Both the position numbers and the translations under genes were made by a program. Below the pieces are notes generated by a model that had not been told where the DNA came from, made no database searches, and saw only the letters and a list, made by a program, of their open reading frames with translations. Shown one piece after another: positions 18,512 through 25,719 of a stretch of DNA of 25,719 bases. The stretch lies in contig JAPLKR010000077.1 in assembly GCA_026387965.1 (NCBI GenBank), forward strand, positions 1 to 25,719. The letters are read 5' to 3'. Within the stretch, counting starts at the first letter, position 1; each line of letters begins with the position of its first letter. The DNA comes from Fusobacteriota bacterium. GTDB taxonomy: Bacteria > Fusobacteriota > Fusobacteriia > JAPLKR01.

Positions 18512-19290
18512 GTGGGATTGTAGATTTATCTGTTATTCGGTTTGCTATGATTTATCTGCTGCTTTTGGTGGTCCTTTTTATCATGAAAAAAGCGCATATT
18601 GCTCAAAGCAGGCTTTTGCTAGTGGCCAGTATTCGAATGACTGTACAGCTTGTCATTGTAGGATTTGTATTAGAATATATAATTTATACTAAAAATCCCA
18701 TTTACACATTACTATTCTTAGCTTTGATGATAGGTTTTTCCATCTATTTAATGCTAAAAAACCAAAAAAAACTACCGAGATATTTCAAATGGGCAATGTC
18801 ACTTGCACTTTTGATTTCAGGGGTTTTGATACTGATTTTTTTTGTTGTAGGTGTCGTTAAACAGTCTTTTTTTAATGGACAGTATACTATTCCGCTTGCT
18901 GGAATGATTATTGGTAACTCTATGACGGGAATTAACATTGCTGTGAAGAGCTTTGTGGAGAGTGTTGATCAAGAGCGTTTGAAAATACAAACCTTACTTA
19001 ATTTAGGGATAGAACCGGAAGCGATACTTAGACCTATGGCAAATAGAGCATTAGAAACAGCACTCATCCCAACATTAAACTCTATGCTTGGGTTAGGTAT
19101 TATTTTTTTACCTGGAATGATGACGGGGCAGATATTATCTGGAACGCTTCCTACAACTGCTATTATGTATCAAATAGCCATTATGATAGCAATCGCTGCT
19201 TCTGTGTGCATCGCTGTTTTTTTTGCGCTATATATAGGGTTGAAATCTTTATATAATTCGGAAAAACAGTTTATCCCTATTGAGAACTAA
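18508..19290 (+). CDS. fetB: FetB/YbbM-like UPF0014 ABC permease
   Basis: The 260-residue membrane protein has about seven hydrophobic segments. UPF0014 signatures are clear: PLAGMIIGNSMTGINIAV in the middle, ESVDQERLKIQTLLNLG, then the cytoplasmic coupling segment EAILRPMANRALETALIPT and LPGMMTGQILSGTLPTTAI. With FetA it would form an efflux transporter, iron in the E. coli pair; the substrate here is inferred. It is translationally coupled to fetA through an ATGA overlap. No clear intrinsic terminator follows. Downstream come a 14-base AT palindrome (19315-19328) and a decayed guaB end. Confidence 0.87.
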   Translation: MSGIVDLSVIRFAMIYLLLLVVLFIMKKAHIAQSRLLLVASIRMTVQLVIVGFVLEYIIYTKNPIYTLLFLALMIGFSIYLMLKNQKKLPRYFKWAMSLALLISGVLILIFFVVGVVKQSFFNGQYTIPLAGMIIGNSMTGINIAVKSFVESVDQERLKIQTLLNLGIEPEAILRPMANRALETALIPTLNSMLGLGIIFLPGMMTGQILSGTLPTTAIMYQIAIMIAIAASVCIAVFFALYIGLKSLYNSEKQFIPIEN

Positions 19291-19366
19291 ATAAGATAGT
19301 GGAATAATTCAAGATATATTTAAATATAGTCTAAAATTGCTTAAGCTTTTAAAAAGAGTGTCTTGA

Positions 19367-19517
19367 CTTCGCTCCATTATAGGTGTATGCAGGATGTGCC
19401 TCAATAGAAGAACTGCACAAAGAGGTAAAGCTGATTAAAATTACATCAGCAGGACTGAAAGAATCACATTCACACTCGGCTACGATTTCAAAGCAACCCT
19501 CTAATTATAATATTTAA
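19367..19517 (+). pseudogene. guaB: Remnant of the 3' end of guaB (IMP dehydrogenase)
   Basis: From 19383 to the stop at 19515-19517 one frame reads VYAGCASIEELHK, then KLIKITSAGLKESHSHS, and ends KQPSNYNI. This matches the conserved C-terminus of IMP dehydrogenase, normally of the form (R/K)ITGAGLRESHPHD followed by EAPNY. Just upstream, in the next frame, 19367-19375 reads LRS, the expected preceding block (GGLRSxMGY), so a one-base frameshift separates them. A TAG at 19380-19382 blocks the main frame. There is no start codon with SD and no remainder of the gene: about 440 residues of a normal GuaB are absent. Several conserved positions are already changed (HD to HS, EAP to QPS). This is a decayed fragment, not a gene. 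IMP dehydrogenase makes XMP for GTP synthesis, so a complete copy should exist elsewhere unless purines are salvaged. Confidence 0.78.
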
Positions 19518-19573
19518 TCTGAAACTGAGGTAAATATTTCTCATAATGGACATAATTTCATCTTAATAGTAAG

Positions 19574-19602
19574 TTGACAAAGGATTAAAAACTTGTTAAA
19601 AT
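19574..19602 (+). promoter_or_regulatory. Sigma-70/A-type promoter of the pyr operon
   Basis: A perfect TTGACA at 19574-19579 and TAAAAT at 19597-19602 are separated by 17 bases. Transcription should start near 19609, giving a leader of about 200 bases before pyrB that contains a small ORF and an intrinsic terminator. It is among the strongest-looking promoters in the window, as expected of an operon controlled downstream by attenuation. Confidence 0.82.
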
Positions 19603-19632
19603 ATTAAAGATAAATGCTTAAAGGAGAGGTCG

Positions 19633-19764
19633 ATGCGATATCAGTATAGTATGGAAAAACGAAAGCAGATGTTTCTGAGATCGACTCTATTAATTGCATT
19701 TATTTTTGATTTTATTGTTGTTTTACAAGTTTTTATTTTACCTTTAGTACTTATCGGACAGTAG
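19633..19764 (+). CDS. 43-residue U-rich pyr leader peptide
   Basis: A small ORF lies between the pyr promoter and pyrB. It starts at ATG 19633 behind AAAGGAGAGG (19619-19628) and ends at TAG 19762-19764, which lies inside the left arm of the attenuator. Codons are mostly Phe, Ile, Leu and Val because the strand is T-rich: 32 of the 50 bases at 19691-19740 are T. The peptide is basic at first (MEKRKQ) and then hydrophobic. By analogy with the enterobacterial pyrBI leader (44 residues), the act of translation rather than the peptide would matter. When UTP is scarce, RNA polymerase pauses in the U-rich stretch, the ribosome closes up, and it masks the terminator's left arm. A genuine small membrane protein is the alternative reading. 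Confidence 0.72.
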   Translation: MRYQYSMEKRKQMFLRSTLLIAFIFDFIVVLQVFILPLVLIGQ

Positions 19765-19788
19765 CTTTTGCTATTGTCCTTTTTTTTT
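19756..19788 (+). terminator. pyr operon attenuator (intrinsic terminator upstream of pyrB)
   Basis: GGACAGTAGC (19756-19765) pairs with GCTATTGTCC (19770-19779) over ten positions with one G-U pair and a TTTT loop, followed directly by nine Ts (19780-19788). The stop codon of the leader ORF is within the left arm, so a ribosome finishing the leader would cover that arm and prevent the hairpin. pyrB begins 24 bases after the T-run. I saw no competing antiterminator helix and no PyrR-binding loop. Confidence 0.88.
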
Positions 19789-19811
19789 ATAAAATTTTTA
19801 GGAGGTAAGTG

Positions 19812-20879
19812 ATGAGAGAGAACAAAAGGGATATTATTACATTAAGAGAGTTTGACAAAGAGGAGATTTTATATATTCTACATAGTGCGTTAAAAATATC
19901 ACAAGAGTCAGAACCTCTGCTTAAAAGTCATATCATATCAACACTTTTTTTTGAACCCTCAACAAGAACACGAACTTCATTTCAAACGGCTGCACTAAGA
20001 CTTGGAGCTTCTGTAAATGGTTTTGATTCAAGTAGTGGAATTTCTGTACAAAAGGGCGAGAATTTTTCAGATACCATCCGCATGATGGAGTATTATAGTG
20101 ACTGTTTAGTTATAAGAAGCCCCCATGATGGGGCAGCAAAGCTTGCCTCGACATTGAGCAGCAAGCCGGTGATAAATGCCGGAGATGGAGTGAATCAGCA
20201 CCCAAGCCAAACGCTTTTAGATCTCTACACTATTCTTGAAGAGAAGCAAACTCTGGAGAATTTAGAAATTGCCTGTGTTGGAGATTTGAAAAATGGCCGA
20301 ACCGTACACTCACTGATAGAAGCGTTGAAGCATTTCAGCCCTAAATTATATTTTATTGCCCCAGAAAGTCTACAAATTCCCCAAAAATATTTGGAAAAAT
20401 TAGATAACTTGAAAATCTCCTATGAACTTCATAGTGAGTTTGAATCAACGCTTGAAAATTATGATGTCTTATATATGACACGTGTTCAAAAAGAGCGATT
20501 CGACAGTGAAGTTGAATATGAAAAAGTGGCCCATTCATTTCAGCTGACGAAAGAGAATATCGTTGGGAAATGTAAGTCCGATATGATGATACTGCATCCC
20601 CTTCCACGAATTGAGGAGATAGCGCGTGATTTAGATGATACACCGCATGCTTTTTATTTTAAGCAAGCTGGAAATGGAATACCAATTAGAAAAGCGATGC
20701 TAGCCTTGGTACTTGGAAAATATTCGAAATTAGAGGCAAAAAATAGTGATGTGGTAGAAATAAATACGGATTTTAAGTGTCATAACGCCCGATGTATATC
20801 GAATGTAAAAACGGAGTATGTCGCACATCGAGCTATTATAAAAAGTGGGAATAAGCAGTGTTTCTTTTGCGAAAAGTAA
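19812..20879 (+). CDS. pyrB: Aspartate carbamoyltransferase with C-terminal PyrI-type zinc tail
   Basis: Catalyses carbamoyl phosphate plus aspartate to carbamoyl aspartate, the committed step of pyrimidine synthesis. The catalytic part (about 1-305) has FFEPSTRTRTSFQ (48-57 region), the lysine loop SVQKGEN, HPSQTLLDLY (130-139) and LHPLPR (261-266), all intact. After it comes a tail of about 45 residues with Cys at 323, 328, 350 and 353 (C-x4-C-x21-C-x2-C, CHNARC and CFFC). This is the zinc-site pattern of the regulatory chain PyrI, which in E. coli contacts PyrB. The nucleotide-binding half of PyrI is not present. ATG 19812 has AGGAGG (19800-19805) six bases upstream; GTG 19809 is too close. 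It heads the operon, 90 bases before pyrK. Confidence 0.95.
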   Translation: MRENKRDIITLREFDKEEILYILHSALKISQESEPLLKSHIISTLFFEPSTRTRTSFQTAALRLGASVNGFDSSSGISVQKGENFSDTIRMMEYYSDCLVIRSPHDGAAKLASTLSSKPVINAGDGVNQHPSQTLLDLYTILEEKQTLENLEIACVGDLKNGRTVHSLIEALKHFSPKLYFIAPESLQIPQKYLEKLDNLKISYELHSEFESTLENYDVLYMTRVQKERFDSEVEYEKVAHSFQLTKENIVGKCKSDMMILHPLPRIEEIARDLDDTPHAFYFKQAGNGIPIRKAMLALVLGKYSKLEAKNSDVVEINTDFKCHNARCISNVKTEYVAHRAIIKSGNKQCFFCEK

Positions 20880-20969: not shown

Positions 20970-21749
20970 ATGTGCCATAATGCCAAAATTGCACTTCATG
21001 AAGTGATTGAAAACCGAAAAATTGCCAAAAACATGTATCTGTTGAGTGTAAAATACGCCGGTCTTGAAAAATCACGTTCAGGTCGATTCTATATGATTTC
21101 ACCTGAAAATTCAAATAATTTTTTAAGTCGCCCCATCTCGCTCTTTTCAGAAAGTTCAGAAGGGAATTTAACATTTTACTATTTAGTTAAAGGAAGTGGA
21201 ACAGAGGCATTAGCAAGGTTAAAAGTGGGTGAGATGGCTCTTGTGCAAGGTCCTTTGGGAAACAGTTTTTCAAAAACAAATGGGCGTGTGCTTTTAGTGG
21301 CAGGTGGCGTGGGCATCGCCCCATTTTATAGCCTAATTGAAAGTTTTGAGAGGCAAGTGAGTTTTGATCTACTGGTAGGATCCAAAAGCGCTGAAGGGCT
21401 AGAAATTATAAAAGAGTTTTCCCAGCTATCAGAGGATTTTAAAGAAAGAGTGAGTGTAGCCACAGATGATGGAAGTTTAGGAAAGAAGGGCTTTGTAACA
21501 GAGTTAGTTGAAGAATTTCTTGAAAAAAAACAGTATGACTCTGTGATTGTATGTGGACCAATGGTTATGATGAAAGCAGTTTCAGAGTTTTGTTATAAAA
21601 AGGGTGTACATTGTGTGGTCTCATTAGAAGAGGCTATGGCATGTGGGGTAGGTGCGTGTGTAGGGTGTAGTATCAAAACTCCGTCTAAAATGAAAAGAGT
21701 GTGTAAAGAGGGACCAATTTTTGATGCTTCGGAGGTGTTTTATGAATAA
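20970..21749 (+). CDS. pyrK: PyrK, electron-transfer subunit of dihydroorotate dehydrogenase B
   Basis: PyrK carries FAD and a 2Fe-2S cluster and passes electrons from PyrD to NAD+. The 259 residues contain the FAD-binding block LSRPISLFS, a ferredoxin-reductase-like NAD domain with LLVAGGVGIAPF and VIVCGPMVMMKAV, and a C-terminal cluster site in EEAMACGVGACVGC. The Cys spacing is C-x4-C-x2-C-x11-C, with the last Cys in KRVCKEG. ATG 20970 follows AGGAG. The 90-base gap after pyrB contains a small hairpin (ATTTGT/ACAAAT) and no gene. The end overlaps pyrD by eight bases. Presence of PyrK assigns the neighbouring PyrD to class 1B. Confidence 0.95.
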   Translation: MCHNAKIALHEVIENRKIAKNMYLLSVKYAGLEKSRSGRFYMISPENSNNFLSRPISLFSESSEGNLTFYYLVKGSGTEALARLKVGEMALVQGPLGNSFSKTNGRVLLVAGGVGIAPFYSLIESFERQVSFDLLVGSKSAEGLEIIKEFSQLSEDFKERVSVATDDGSLGKKGFVTELVEEFLEKKQYDSVIVCGPMVMMKAVSEFCYKKGVHCVVSLEEAMACGVGACVGCSIKTPSKMKRVCKEGPIFDASEVFYE

Positions 21750-22662
21750 ATTAGAAGTCAATATTGCCGGTCTGAAATTGAAAAACCCTATATGTTCTGC
21801 GTCAGGGTGCTTCGGATTTGGGTTTGAATATCAGGAATATTTTAATCCAAATCGTTTAGGGGCCATAGTACTAAAAGGCATAACGCCAGAAGAACGAAGC
21901 GGAAATTTAGGAAGGCGTATTGTTGAGACCCCAAGTGGGATGCTCAATTCTGTTGGACTTCAAAACCCTGGAATAGAAAAATTTCTTAGTGAGTATTCAA
22001 GTGAAATTGAAAAAGAACTAACCGAGAGTGTGGTAATTGCTAACATTAATGGAAAAACGGTTGAGGAGTTTATATTTTTAGCCACTCAGTTAGAACCGCT
22101 CAGATATATTCAAGCGATTGAAGTCAATGTGTCATGTCCTAATATTAAACAGGGTGGAATGAGCTTTGGCGTGATTTCAGATTTGATAAAAAAAGTCACT
22201 CAAGAGGTAAAAAAAGTAAGTAGCAAAAGCATTATTGTAAAGCTTACTCCAAATGTAACGAGCATTGCGGAGATGGCCAAAGCGGCTGAGGAGGGTGGAG
22301 CCGATGTACTTTCGCTTATTAATACCGTTCAAGCCTTGGCCATTGATATGGAGAGTAAAAAGTTGGTTCTCGGCAATGGGATTGGAGGACTCTCTGGACC
22401 AGCGGTGAAGCCGATTGCGCTTAGATGTATATACCAAGTTAGTGAGGCTGTGAAAATCCCTATTATTGGAATGGGCGGAGTTTCAAATTGGCGTGATGTG
22501 GTCGAATTTATGATGGCAGGAGCGTCAGCGGTGGCAATAGGGAGTGCAAGTTTTAGAAATCCGATGATTTTTCCTGAAATCATTTCAGAGTTAGAAAATT
22601 ATGTAAAGCGAGAAAAATTAACTTCAATTTCAGATATTGTAGGGTGTATTCATACTAATTAG
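21742..22662 (+). CDS. pyrD: Dihydroorotate dehydrogenase class 1B, catalytic subunit
   Basis: Oxidises dihydroorotate to orotate with FMN and works as a PyrD2K2 complex. The 306-residue TIM barrel contains NPICSASGCFGFG, VLKGITPEERSGN, the substrate block GMLNSVGLQNPG, the active-site Cys in VNVSCPN (Cys, as expected for class 1B, where class 2 has Ser), VKLTPNV, and the FMN-phosphate blocks GMGGVSNW and AVAIGSASF. ATG 21742 has GGAGG upstream and overlaps the pyrK stop by eight bases. An in-frame TTG 21721 would put seven extra residues ahead and has no SD. It is nine bases before pyrF. Confidence 0.96.
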   Translation: MNKLEVNIAGLKLKNPICSASGCFGFGFEYQEYFNPNRLGAIVLKGITPEERSGNLGRRIVETPSGMLNSVGLQNPGIEKFLSEYSSEIEKELTESVVIANINGKTVEEFIFLATQLEPLRYIQAIEVNVSCPNIKQGGMSFGVISDLIKKVTQEVKKVSSKSIIVKLTPNVTSIAEMAKAAEEGGADVLSLINTVQALAIDMESKKLVLGNGIGGLSGPAVKPIALRCIYQVSEAVKIPIIGMGGVSNWRDVVEFMMAGASAVAIGSASFRNPMIFPEIISELENYVKREKLTSISDIVGCIHTN

Positions 22663-22670
22663 GAGGAAAA

Positions 22671-23369
22671 ATGTTAAGACCAATTATTGTAGCACTGGAT
22701 TTTCCAACATTTGATGAAGCGAAAGTATGTGTAGACAACTTGAAAAGTGAAATTGATATTTTCAAAGTGGGATTAGAACTCTTTTTAAACACAAAAGGAG
22801 AAATTGTTGAGTATATCCACTCTAAAGGGCGTGAAGTTTTTTTAGATCTGAAATTTCACGATATTCCTAATACCACAGAGCAAGCTGCAAAATTTGCCAT
22901 ATCTCAAAATGTGTTTCTTTACAATATTCATGCCAGTGGTGGAATGGAGATGATGAAGCGTGTGGCAAAGGTAAGTCGGGAGAGCGAAAAGAGCAGAGTA
23001 ATAGGCGTTACCATATTAACTAGCTTAGAAAATAGTGATATGCATGAGGGATTTTTAACCGATGCAACGGTAGGTGACGTTGCAACAAAGCTCGCTAAGA
23101 ATGCTTGTGACAGTGGACTTCATGGCGTGGTCTGTTCACCACATGAAGCGGCGTCCATTAAGGCAGTTTGCGGAAAAGAGTTTCTGACAGTTTGCCCGGG
23201 TATTCGATTAGAGAGTGGAGATCTTCAAGATCAAAAACGTGTAGCAACGCCTCGTTGGGCAGTAAAAAATGGTGTAGATTTTATGGTAATAGGACGGCCT
23301 ATTACCAAGGCAGAAAATCCCTTGGAAGTGATAAAAAATATTTATAAGGAAATAGGCTATGGGAAATAG
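22671..23369 (+). CDS. pyrF: Orotidine 5'-phosphate decarboxylase
   Basis: Last step to UMP: decarboxylation of OMP. The 232 residues fit the short type-1 family. Motifs are PIIVALDF at the start, FKVGLELF, the catalytic D-x-K-x-x-D in DLKFHD (59-64), NIHASGG, GVTILTSL and the phosphate-binding loop FMVIGRPIT. All catalytic residues are present. ATG 22671 follows AGGAGG. The last 11 bases overlap the pyrC start, consistent with translational coupling inside the operon. Confidence 0.96.
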   Translation: MLRPIIVALDFPTFDEAKVCVDNLKSEIDIFKVGLELFLNTKGEIVEYIHSKGREVFLDLKFHDIPNTTEQAAKFAISQNVFLYNIHASGGMEMMKRVAKVSRESEKSRVIGVTILTSLENSDMHEGFLTDATVGDVATKLAKNACDSGLHGVVCSPHEAASIKAVCGKEFLTVCPGIRLESGDLQDQKRVATPRWAVKNGVDFMVIGRPITKAENPLEVIKNIYKEIGYGK

Positions 23370-24528
23370 TGTGCTGATAAAAAATGTTCAAATTGTAGAG
23401 TATGAAAATCACTTTAAGAGATGTGATGTTCGAATTATTAACGGACGAGTACAAGAAATGGGGAATTTATCCGCTTTAATTGGAGAAGAGGTGTATAACG
23501 GCGAGGGAAATATGCTTTTTCCAGGTGTGATAGATCCGCATGTGCATATGAGAACTCCGGGGTTTACCCACAAGGAGGATTTTGAAACGGGGAGTAAAGC
23601 GGCACTAAAAGGTGGGGTAACTCGAATATTTGATATGCCCAATACTCAACCAGCTACCATTACAAAAGAAGCGTTAGAAGAGAAAATACTACTTGCTGAA
23701 AAATATTCGAATGTTAAAATGGGATTTTATTTTGGCACAGTGGCAAGTGAAGAGGTACTGGAAAAGTGTGTTGGAGCAAAACTTTTTCTCTCTGAAACAA
23801 CAGGCTCTATGATTGAAAAAGAGCAGAGTAGAATAGACAATTTTTTCAACATGAAAACCCTTATTGCGGTACATGCGGAAGAAGAGAAGATGCAAGAGGC
23901 TATTTCTTATTTTCATAAAGGGAGTGCAAATGCACTCTATCTCTGCCATGTTGCAAGTGAAAAAGAGTTAGATTATATTAAAGTTGCAAAATCGAAAAAC
24001 AGTAAAATTTATGCAGAAGTTGCGCCTCACCATCTTTTTTTTATAGAGCAGGATTTGGAAAAAAATTCCCTACTCTATATGAAGCCTATGTTAAAGAGCA
24101 GTAGCGATAGAGAAGCACTAAGACAAGCCCTCTCAGATAGTCTGTTTGATACCATTGGAAGCGACCATGCCCCGCATACACTAGATGAAAAAATGGGGAG
24201 GAAAAGCTTTGGTGTGCCAGGAGTGCAGTACCTTTTTCCATTAACGTTGGAGTTGGTGACAGAAGGGGTGATTACTTATGAGCAGGCCCAACGCCTTTGT
24301 AGTGAGAATGCAGCTAAAATTTTCAATCTTGAGAAGTGTGGCAAAATTCAAGTGGGATACTGTGCGGATTTAACCCTGGTTTCGAAAAAAACATGGAAAA
24401 TTTCAAGGGAAGATGTGGCATCAAAATGTGGTTGGACGCCTTATGAAGGGATGAAGCTCTCCCACTGTGTTGAAGCGACATGGGTAGAGGGGAAATTAGC
24501 CTTTGAAAGAGAGAGGTCGACAAAATGA
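23359..24528 (+). CDS. pyrC: Dihydroorotase
   Basis: Cyclises carbamoyl aspartate to dihydroorotate, the step between PyrB and PyrDK. The 389-residue amidohydrolase starts with a short beta region, then the zinc motif DPHVHMR (59-65) and FDMPNTQP. Further metal-ligand candidates are His in AVHAEEE and in LCHVASE, and Asp/His in IGSDHAPH. The segment AKLFLSETTGSM is where the carboxylated Lys would be expected in this branch; that assignment is an inference. It is a class I type, somewhat shorter than the 420-430 residues common in Bacilli. GVPGVQYLFPL and TLVSKKTW near the end are normal for the family. The start overlaps pyrF by 11 bases, and the stop overlaps pyrE by four (ATGA). Confidence 0.94.
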   Translation: MGNSVLIKNVQIVEYENHFKRCDVRIINGRVQEMGNLSALIGEEVYNGEGNMLFPGVIDPHVHMRTPGFTHKEDFETGSKAALKGGVTRIFDMPNTQPATITKEALEEKILLAEKYSNVKMGFYFGTVASEEVLEKCVGAKLFLSETTGSMIEKEQSRIDNFFNMKTLIAVHAEEEKMQEAISYFHKGSANALYLCHVASEKELDYIKVAKSKNSKIYAEVAPHHLFFIEQDLEKNSLLYMKPMLKSSSDREALRQALSDSLFDTIGSDHAPHTLDEKMGRKSFGVPGVQYLFPLTLELVTEGVITYEQAQRLCSENAAKIFNLEKCGKIQVGYCADLTLVSKKTWKISREDVASKCGWTPYEGMKLSHCVEATWVEGKLAFERERSTK

Positions 24529-25136
24529 AGAGAGTAGCAGAAGCACTGCTTAAAACAGGGTCAGTGAAAATTCAAGTGGAGAACCATTTCACATTTGTAT
24601 CGGGAATTAAAAGCCCCATTTATTGTGACAATCGAAAACTTTTAGGGCATTTAGAGCGTGAGTGGGTCATAGAGGGATTTATGGAGAATTTAAAAAACTC
24701 TGAATATGATGTTGTGGCCGGTACTGCGACCGCTGGAATTCCTTGGTCTAGTTTTATTGCCGATAGAGCCAAGAAACCACTCGCCTATGTGAGAAACAAA
24801 CCTAAAGAGCATGGGGCAGGCAATCAAATTGAAGGGGCTGATATTAAAGGCAAGTCAGTGATTTTAATTGAGGATTTAATTTCGACGGGGGGCAGTTCAG
24901 TAAAAGCCGCTGAGGCGCTTCTAAATGCCGGGGCAAAGTCTGTCAAAGTACTTTCAATATTTACCTATGAATTTCTTGAGGCAAAGGAAAAATTTTCCAT
25001 AGCTAAAATTGAGTATGAGGCACTTTCGAATTTCTCAACTTTGATAGGACTTGCTAAAGAGATTGGGTATATTAGCGAAAGCGAGTATGAGCTAGCGAAG
25101 AGTTGGAATGCTGCACCTAATGCTTGGAAAAATTAA
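24525..25136 (+). CDS. pyrE: Orotate phosphoribosyltransferase
   Basis: Joins orotate to PRPP to form OMP, the substrate of PyrF. The 203 residues contain FTFVSGIKSPIYCDNR near the N-terminus, VVAGTATAGIPW, the flexible catalytic loop region RNKPKEHGAGNQIEG and the PRPP-binding motif VILIEDLISTGGSS (112-125). Length and order are normal. The ATG at 24525 overlaps the pyrC stop as ATGA, so translation is probably coupled; no separate strong SD is needed. carA follows after 15 bases. Confidence 0.96.
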   Translation: MKRVAEALLKTGSVKIQVENHFTFVSGIKSPIYCDNRKLLGHLEREWVIEGFMENLKNSEYDVVAGTATAGIPWSSFIADRAKKPLAYVRNKPKEHGAGNQIEGADIKGKSVILIEDLISTGGSSVKAAEALLNAGAKSVKVLSIFTYEFLEAKEKFSIAKIEYEALSNFSTLIGLAKEIGYISESEYELAKSWNAAPNAWKN

Positions 25137-25151
25137 AACGAGGAGGTATAA

Positions 25152-25719
25152 GTGAAAGGACATTTGATATTAGAAAATGGTATGATTTTTGAAGGAAAAC
25201 TTTTTGGGGCTGTAGATCAAACCGTTGTGGGCGAGGTGGTATTCAATACTTCGATGACAGGATATCAAGAGATATTAACCGACCCCTCTTATTTTGGACA
25301 AATGGTCACTCTTACCTATCCACTGATTGGAAATTATGGGGTGAATGTCGAGGATGTAGAGTCAAATGGAATCAAGGCGCGTGCACTTATTATAAAAGAG
25401 CCAGCTAAACTTCCTAATAACTATCGATGTGAGATGCCACTTTCTTATTATTTAAAACAAAATGGCGTGATTGGGCTTAAAGGGATTGATACCCGTGAAT
25501 TGACAAAAGTTTTAAGAGATGTTGGAACGATGAAGGGTATTATTACAAAAAAAAGTTTAACGCAAAAAGAGGTTAAAGAGCGATTTTCGACATTTTCTAA
25601 TAAAGCAGCAGTGGAGTGCGTGACGACTAAAGCACCTTATGAACTTTTACCAAAAGGTGACTATAAATTTCATATTGCTGTCTGGGATTTTGGTGTAAAA
25701 ACAAATATTTTAACAAATT
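25152..25719 (+). CDS. carA: Carbamoyl-phosphate synthase small subunit (partial, runs off the window)
   Basis: CarA supplies ammonia from glutamine to CarB for carbamoyl phosphate, the substrate of PyrB and of arginine synthesis. GTG 25152 has AGGAGG (25141-25146) upstream. The frame stays open for about 189 codons to the window end. The N-terminal small-chain domain is clear: LILENGMIFEGKLFG, VVFNTSMTGYQEILTDPSY, VTLTYPLIGNYG and GIDTRELTKVLRD. The glutamine amidotransferase domain just begins (HIAVWDFGVKTNIL). The catalytic Cys and His lie beyond the end, so activity cannot be judged. carB is expected next. Placement in the pyr operon suggests pyrimidine rather than arginine control. Confidence 0.95.
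   Translation, partial: MKGHLILENGMIFEGKLFGAVDQTVVGEVVFNTSMTGYQEILTDPSYFGQMVTLTYPLIGNYGVNVEDVESNGIKARALIIKEPAKLPNNYRCEMPLSYYLKQNGVIGLKGIDTRELTKVLRDVGTMKGIITKKSLTQKEVKERFSTFSNKAAVECVTTKAPYELLPKGDYKFHIAVWDFGVKTNILTN

Follow-up and report, generated by a model that had tools for sequence, protein, structure and literature searches.

The 25,719-nucleotide contig JAPLKR010000077.1 of a Fusobacteriota bacterium, hereafter the window, ends in an operon for pyrimidine biosynthesis, and the DNA directly upstream of its first gene, pyrB, holds a short leader that probably acts as a sensor of uridine triphosphate (UTP). All parts of the leader lie on the plus strand. It begins with a sigma-70 promoter, TTGACA-17-TAAAAT (19574-19602), with boxes at 19574-19579 and 19597-19602, a spacer of 17 nucleotides (nt) and 11 of 12 consensus matches. 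A Shine-Dalgarno (SD) site read from the sequence, AAGGAGAGG (19621-19629), precedes an open reading frame (ORF) from the ORF list (19633-19764; ATG at 19633) whose 43 codons encode a peptide of 43 amino acids, MRYQYSMEKRKQMFLRSTLLIAFIFDFIVVLQVFILPLVLIGQ, with a hydrophobic stretch and no match in Pfam or NCBIfam. Within the ORF lies a tract with 32 T and 11 A in 50 bases (19691-19740), which we propose to be a region of UTP-dependent RNA polymerase pausing. The ORF runs into an intrinsic terminator (19756-19788), the putative attenuator, formed by a ten-pair hairpin (19756-19779) with the loop TTTT and by a run of nine T residues (19780-19788), and its stop codon, TAG (19762-19764), sits in the left arm of the hairpin. 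The ATG of pyrB, at 19812, follows 23 bases past the T run and 47 nt after the leader stop, and pyrB has a strong SD site of its own. The promoter, the 43-codon ORF with its SD site, the T-rich stretch and the ten-pair terminator with nine Ts and a stop codon in its left arm had all been described in the original prediction, and each was found where it had been placed.

This arrangement is not expected by chance. The terminator is the single terminator-like site within 19200-20000, against 0.2 in shuffled sequences, and when the leader is shuffled by dinucleotides, 4.3% of the shuffles contain an ORF that is 40 codons or longer and ends in the hairpin, and 0.065% if an SD site is also asked for. 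A 50-mer with 32 T occurs at one place only on the plus strand of the 25.7-kb window, namely the leader tract; coding 50-mers of the window have a mean of 15.4 T (standard deviation 3.9) and a maximum of 30. Moreover, the 17 codons of the tract contain 33 T, against 28.3 after synonymous recoding with local codon usage and the peptide held fixed (P=0.005). The host is represented by a 1.79-Mb draft genome (G000, 95.5% complete), the sole member of its genus, family and order in our collection. The original prediction had set the leader against the control found in Firmicutes; the host stands in an isolated order of the class Fusobacteriia, and is not one of the Firmicutes.

The same arrangement recurs across the class. 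Our sample of Fusobacteriia comprises 98 genomes, of which 88, from 24 genera, were testable; leaders were collected upstream of pyrB (in members with a match), of carA (in most members with a close carA) and of pyrK (in three genomes in which it heads an operon of its own). A uniform leader caller, which misses leaders with a weak SD site and under loose criteria brings in some background, places the arrangement at the start of the operon, before pyrB, carA or pyrK, in at least 61 of the 88 genomes and in 17 of the 24 genera. The ORF and the T-rich tract, whose presence in relatives the original prediction had made its test, are thus found in them; the leader had been assigned to the pyr operon, and it does precede pyrB, but its range is broader, since operons that begin with carA or pyrK are headed by it as well. 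The order of parts is also recurrent: promoter-like sequence (similarly placed, as judged by eye), strong SD site, ORF, U-rich second half, hairpin with a long T tract, structural gene. The ORF varies from 25 to 71 codons, with a median of 46, and in 70 of the 85 distinct leaders its stop codon lies within the hairpin. Of the 88 genomes, 31 have at least two separate leaders. Where pyrB stands behind carAB, the leader is found before carA and none before pyrB. In genus g16, the carA and pyrK operons are each headed by their own leader, and the two peptides share a DVPY motif; these leaders look like paralogues. In genus g9, a leader with its terminator precedes a uracil-permease-like gene in two genomes (G041, locus L257, and G040, locus L262; minus strand, at about 1400 in reverse coordinates).

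Within the DNA scanned, the leader appears specific to these genes. A strict scan of both strands of 567 kb of Fusobacteriia DNA gave 48 hits, all 48 directly before pyrB, carA or pyrK, a figure that measures specificity against neighbouring genes rather than whole genomes, as the set consists of loci picked around pyr genes, with one or two genomes entered twice. At 107 pyr-gene sites a terminator lies within 170 nt; at 74 of these, an SD site precedes an ORF of 25 or more codons that ends in the hairpin or no more than 25 nt after it, where 0.1 would be expected from shuffles of the 240 nt before the hairpin. Loose criteria gave 6 positives out of 62 in a control set of Bacteroidota, archaea and candidate phyla and 10 out of 16 in Gammaproteobacteria (one betaproteobacterium included); because this background is about 10%, the main claim of specificity is based on the strict criteria. 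G040, one of the two genomes with a leader before the uracil permease gene, has no pyrB match at all. In G068 (L188, 7813-7852), the carA terminator is accompanied by an ORF with its stop in the hairpin and by no U-rich tract (T fraction 0.18); this is a leader that has degenerated, unless the ORF was miscalled. At the genus g23 loci L025, L026, L030, L037, L048, L052 and L054, pyrB follows an apparent promoter and a short leader, with neither a leader ORF nor PyrR.

What appears to be conserved in the leader is the U content of its RNA. Over the final 20 codons ahead of the hairpin the T fraction is 0.53, compared with 0.29 in coding sequences from the same loci. Of 88 leaders, 80 favour T at synonymous positions (mean z +1.46), and the mean shift is positive in 12 of 15 genera. 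The same measure gives a z of 0.01 for 5,632 windows of ordinary coding sequence and of -0.19 for 245 hydrophobic coding windows, so that a hydrophobic peptide is not the cause of the bias. The excess of T is greatest 21-40 nt upstream of the hairpin. From these comparisons, U in the leader RNA looks to be under selection.

The leader is accompanied neither by PyrR nor by a recognizable antiterminator. In the window's genome, a search for pyrR returned only matches of hypoxanthine phosphoribosyltransferase (HPRT) type, below cut-off, and the PyrR-binding RNA RF00515 was found neither in the window's leader nor in the rest of that genome. No Rfam family matches the window's leader or the other leaders scanned. 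Nor does any upstream segment pair with the terminator arm better than in shuffled sequences (mean z 0.02; 3 of 88 below -2), although folding of the upstream part of the leaders is slightly stronger than in shuffles (mean z -1.06; 17 of 88 below -2). The absence of a PyrR loop and of an antiterminator, noted in the original prediction, was thus borne out by the RF00515 scan and the duplex test, and the genome search extends it to the pyrR gene. Across the class, PyrR is found above cut-off in 3 of 98 genomes, all of genus g5 (G016-G018; L087, L088 and L090), and RF00515 in the same three, with one weak sub-threshold match away from the leader in a genome that has leaders, G039. The g5 genomes have no such leader at pyrB; their pyrB is distant (36-38% identity), and the one g5 sequence in our tree falls far outside the clade of leader-type Fusobacteriia PyrB. 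Apparently, the native pyr operon of g5 was replaced through horizontal transfer.

We consider it likely that the leader is a UTP-sensing attenuator that works by coupling transcription to translation, in the manner of E. coli pyrBI. RNA polymerase would start about 25 nt upstream of the leader ORF and cross the U-rich stretch at a speed set by UTP. When UTP is short, polymerase would pause within the stretch, allowing the ribosome on the leader to catch up. A terminating ribosome covers about 30 nt, and with the stop codon inside the hairpin it would cover the hairpin and permit readthrough into pyrBKDFCE-carA. With ample UTP, polymerase would run ahead, the hairpin would form behind it and transcription would stop before pyrB. 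The peak of T 21-40 nt before the hairpin could then mark a pause site just ahead of the synthesis of the terminator. The peptide itself would be a by-product, and selection would act on translation up to the hairpin and on a U-rich RNA. Of the UTP attenuator originally proposed, the anatomy, its conservation and the lack of PyrR or an antiterminator have held; translation of the leader, conditional termination and the role of UTP as signal are what we infer from them.

Other functions for the leader have to be weighed. It could respond to a bound protein or metabolite, through PyrR or through an aptamer of an unknown kind; PyrR attenuators are common on the pyr operons of Firmicutes, g5 has one, and the slightly improved folding of the upstream region would allow a weak structural role. 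However, no genome with a leader, that of the window included, has PyrR above cut-off or an RF00515 match above cut-off (that of G039 being sub-threshold and elsewhere), and the lack of Rfam matches and of an antiterminator points the same way; some other protein may be conceivable, but we regard control of this type as very unlikely. It is also hard to credit that the leader is an amino-acid attenuator, in which a ribosome stalled at codons for Phe (or Ile, Leu or Asn) lets an alternative RNA structure decide on termination. Phe codons are indeed 3.8-fold and Asn codons 2-fold enriched in the leaders, but it is residues with U-rich or A/U codons that are enriched, the synonymous excess of T is not predicted by such a mechanism, no sign of an antiterminator was detected and the genes downstream serve pyrimidine rather than Phe synthesis. 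Much the same low probability attaches to a functional small membrane protein encoded before an ordinary terminator with constant readthrough. The hydrophobic stretch of the window's peptide and the similarity in sequence of leaders from congeners would agree with it. Against it, peptides of different genera differ in sequence as well as length, that of the window has no family match, the first, second and third codon positions change almost equally (35, 26 and 39% of the differences) with synonymous sites biased to T, and neither the stop codon in the hairpin nor two or more different leaders per genome would be expected. Least probable, in our view, is a role in translation reinitiation or mRNA stability in place of attenuation. 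Short leader ORFs near genes can raise translation through reinitiation, as has been proposed (PMC4833913), but in the window the stop is 47 nt from a pyrB that has its own strong SD site, and reinitiation has no need of the canonical terminator and T9 run that stand between the two.

Several findings nonetheless weigh against a UTP-sensing attenuator, or against its generality. The enrichment in Phe codons is what an amino-acid attenuator would show, although Phe is unlinked to the pathway. The differences among codon positions indicate a weak constraint on the peptide, and gap lengths are divisible by three in 37 of 46 cases, a count that is partly circular since both members of each pair were chosen as ORFs. 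Genera g8, g22 and g26 show no synonymous T bias, and genomes of one genus are not independent of one another. Finally, the leader had been suggested to be lineage-wide, which is true of most of the class Fusobacteriia but not of the 13 genomes of genus g23, of g14 or of a small number of others, in which we found no recognizable leader and no PyrR.

The closest parallel is the pyrBI operon of E. coli, which shares with the Fusobacteriia leader an SD site and an ORF of about 44 codons that overlaps the hairpin, an aspartate carbamoyltransferase gene next in line and the lack of a regulatory protein (PMC3641672), as well as a cluster of U in the ORF about 20 nt before the hairpin (K-12 genome sequence). 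The parallel drawn in the original prediction is therefore sound as to the order of parts but not as to the stop codon: in E. coli K-12, the pyrL ORF extends across the whole hairpin to a stop 27 nt beyond it, whereas in Fusobacteriia the stop is usually inside. The Fusobacteriia leader, unlike that of pyrBI, is also found before carA, pyrK and a uracil permease gene. The PyrR attenuator of Firmicutes (RF00515) likewise controls pyr operons at a leader terminator, but requires PyrR and an antiterminator, neither of which was found with the leader. The trpL and pheL attenuators also have a short translated leader before a terminator; they differ in the use of mutually exclusive RNA helices, for which the Fusobacteriia leaders show no counterpart, and of runs of one cognate codon. 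At carAB, codBA and upp of E. coli, control is also UTP-dependent and needs no repressor (PMC6245113), but it acts at initiation, by reiterative transcription or start-site choice, rather than at a terminator in the leader. For carAB of E. coli, the site described for pyrimidine control is promoter P1 (PMC6245113), whereas the carA of Fusobacteriia has a leader terminator.

The leader of Fusobacteriia is probably independent of the enterobacterial one. PyrB proteins of the leader type in this class, with the window's among them, group in a single clade, and this clade does not nest within Gammaproteobacteria, in a FastTree tree of a sample of sequences, midpoint rooted and with no formal test applied. 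The leader peptides bear no likeness by eye to pyrL, and are too short and too biased in composition for a test of homology. The occurrence of the leader in families f3 and f6 as well as in the window's order is most simply explained if the ancestor of these lineages already had it. It is possible, alternatively, that the leader is ancestral in both phyla or was transferred early.

Attenuation by a UTP-sensing leader has so far been demonstrated in the enterobacteria, E. coli and its relatives. We lean towards the broader view that the whole pyrimidine regulon of Fusobacteriia, comprising carAB, pyrB, pyrKDFCE and in places uracil uptake, is under a protein-free UTP sensor made of polymerase pausing and ribosome position, which evolved independently, is ancestral to the class and gave way in one genus to a PyrR operon gained by horizontal transfer. 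If so, it would be the chief means by which another phylum controls its pyr genes, acting on several operons per genome, and coupling-based nucleotide sensing would evolve repeatedly. The more than 80 natural variants would offer a means of sorting out which parts matter, among the U tract, the spacing and the position of the stop. The ribosome would, moreover, have to follow RNA polymerase closely in Fusobacteria, a question of general interest because B. subtilis is reported to have loose coupling or none. The mechanism is of a known kind, but the class-wide, multi-operon system appears to be undescribed: neither a pyr attenuator of Fusobacteria nor an experiment on one was found in the open literature searched, supplements and subscription journals aside, and the main texts of a 2010 survey of premature terminators (PMC2965389) and of a 2024 transcriptome paper on F. 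nucleatum (PMC11005410) do not mention one.

The operon behind the window's leader has the order pyrB-pyrK-pyrD-pyrF-pyrC-pyrE-carA, all on the plus strand. According to family scans, pyrB (19812-20879) encodes aspartate carbamoyltransferase with a C-terminal zinc domain of the PyrI type; in this protein, as in those of several Fusobacteriaceae, the resemblance of the C-terminal extension to PyrI is confined to the zinc domain (PF02748; E 0.002-0.16, below cut-off), and PF01948, the nucleotide-binding domain of PyrI, has no match in the window's genome. The window's PyrB may be without nucleotide feedback, and control would then be left to transcription. Family scans likewise identify pyrK, for the electron transfer subunit of dihydroorotate dehydrogenase (20970-21749), and pyrD of class 1B (21742-22662). 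The genes pyrF (22671-23369) and pyrC (23359-24528) were assigned from sequence and operon position, and pyrE (24525-25136) from a profile search of the genome. The last gene, carA (25152-25719), is cut by the end of the contig and shows 54-65% identity to complete homologues, which have about 350-400 codons and stand directly before carB-like ORFs.
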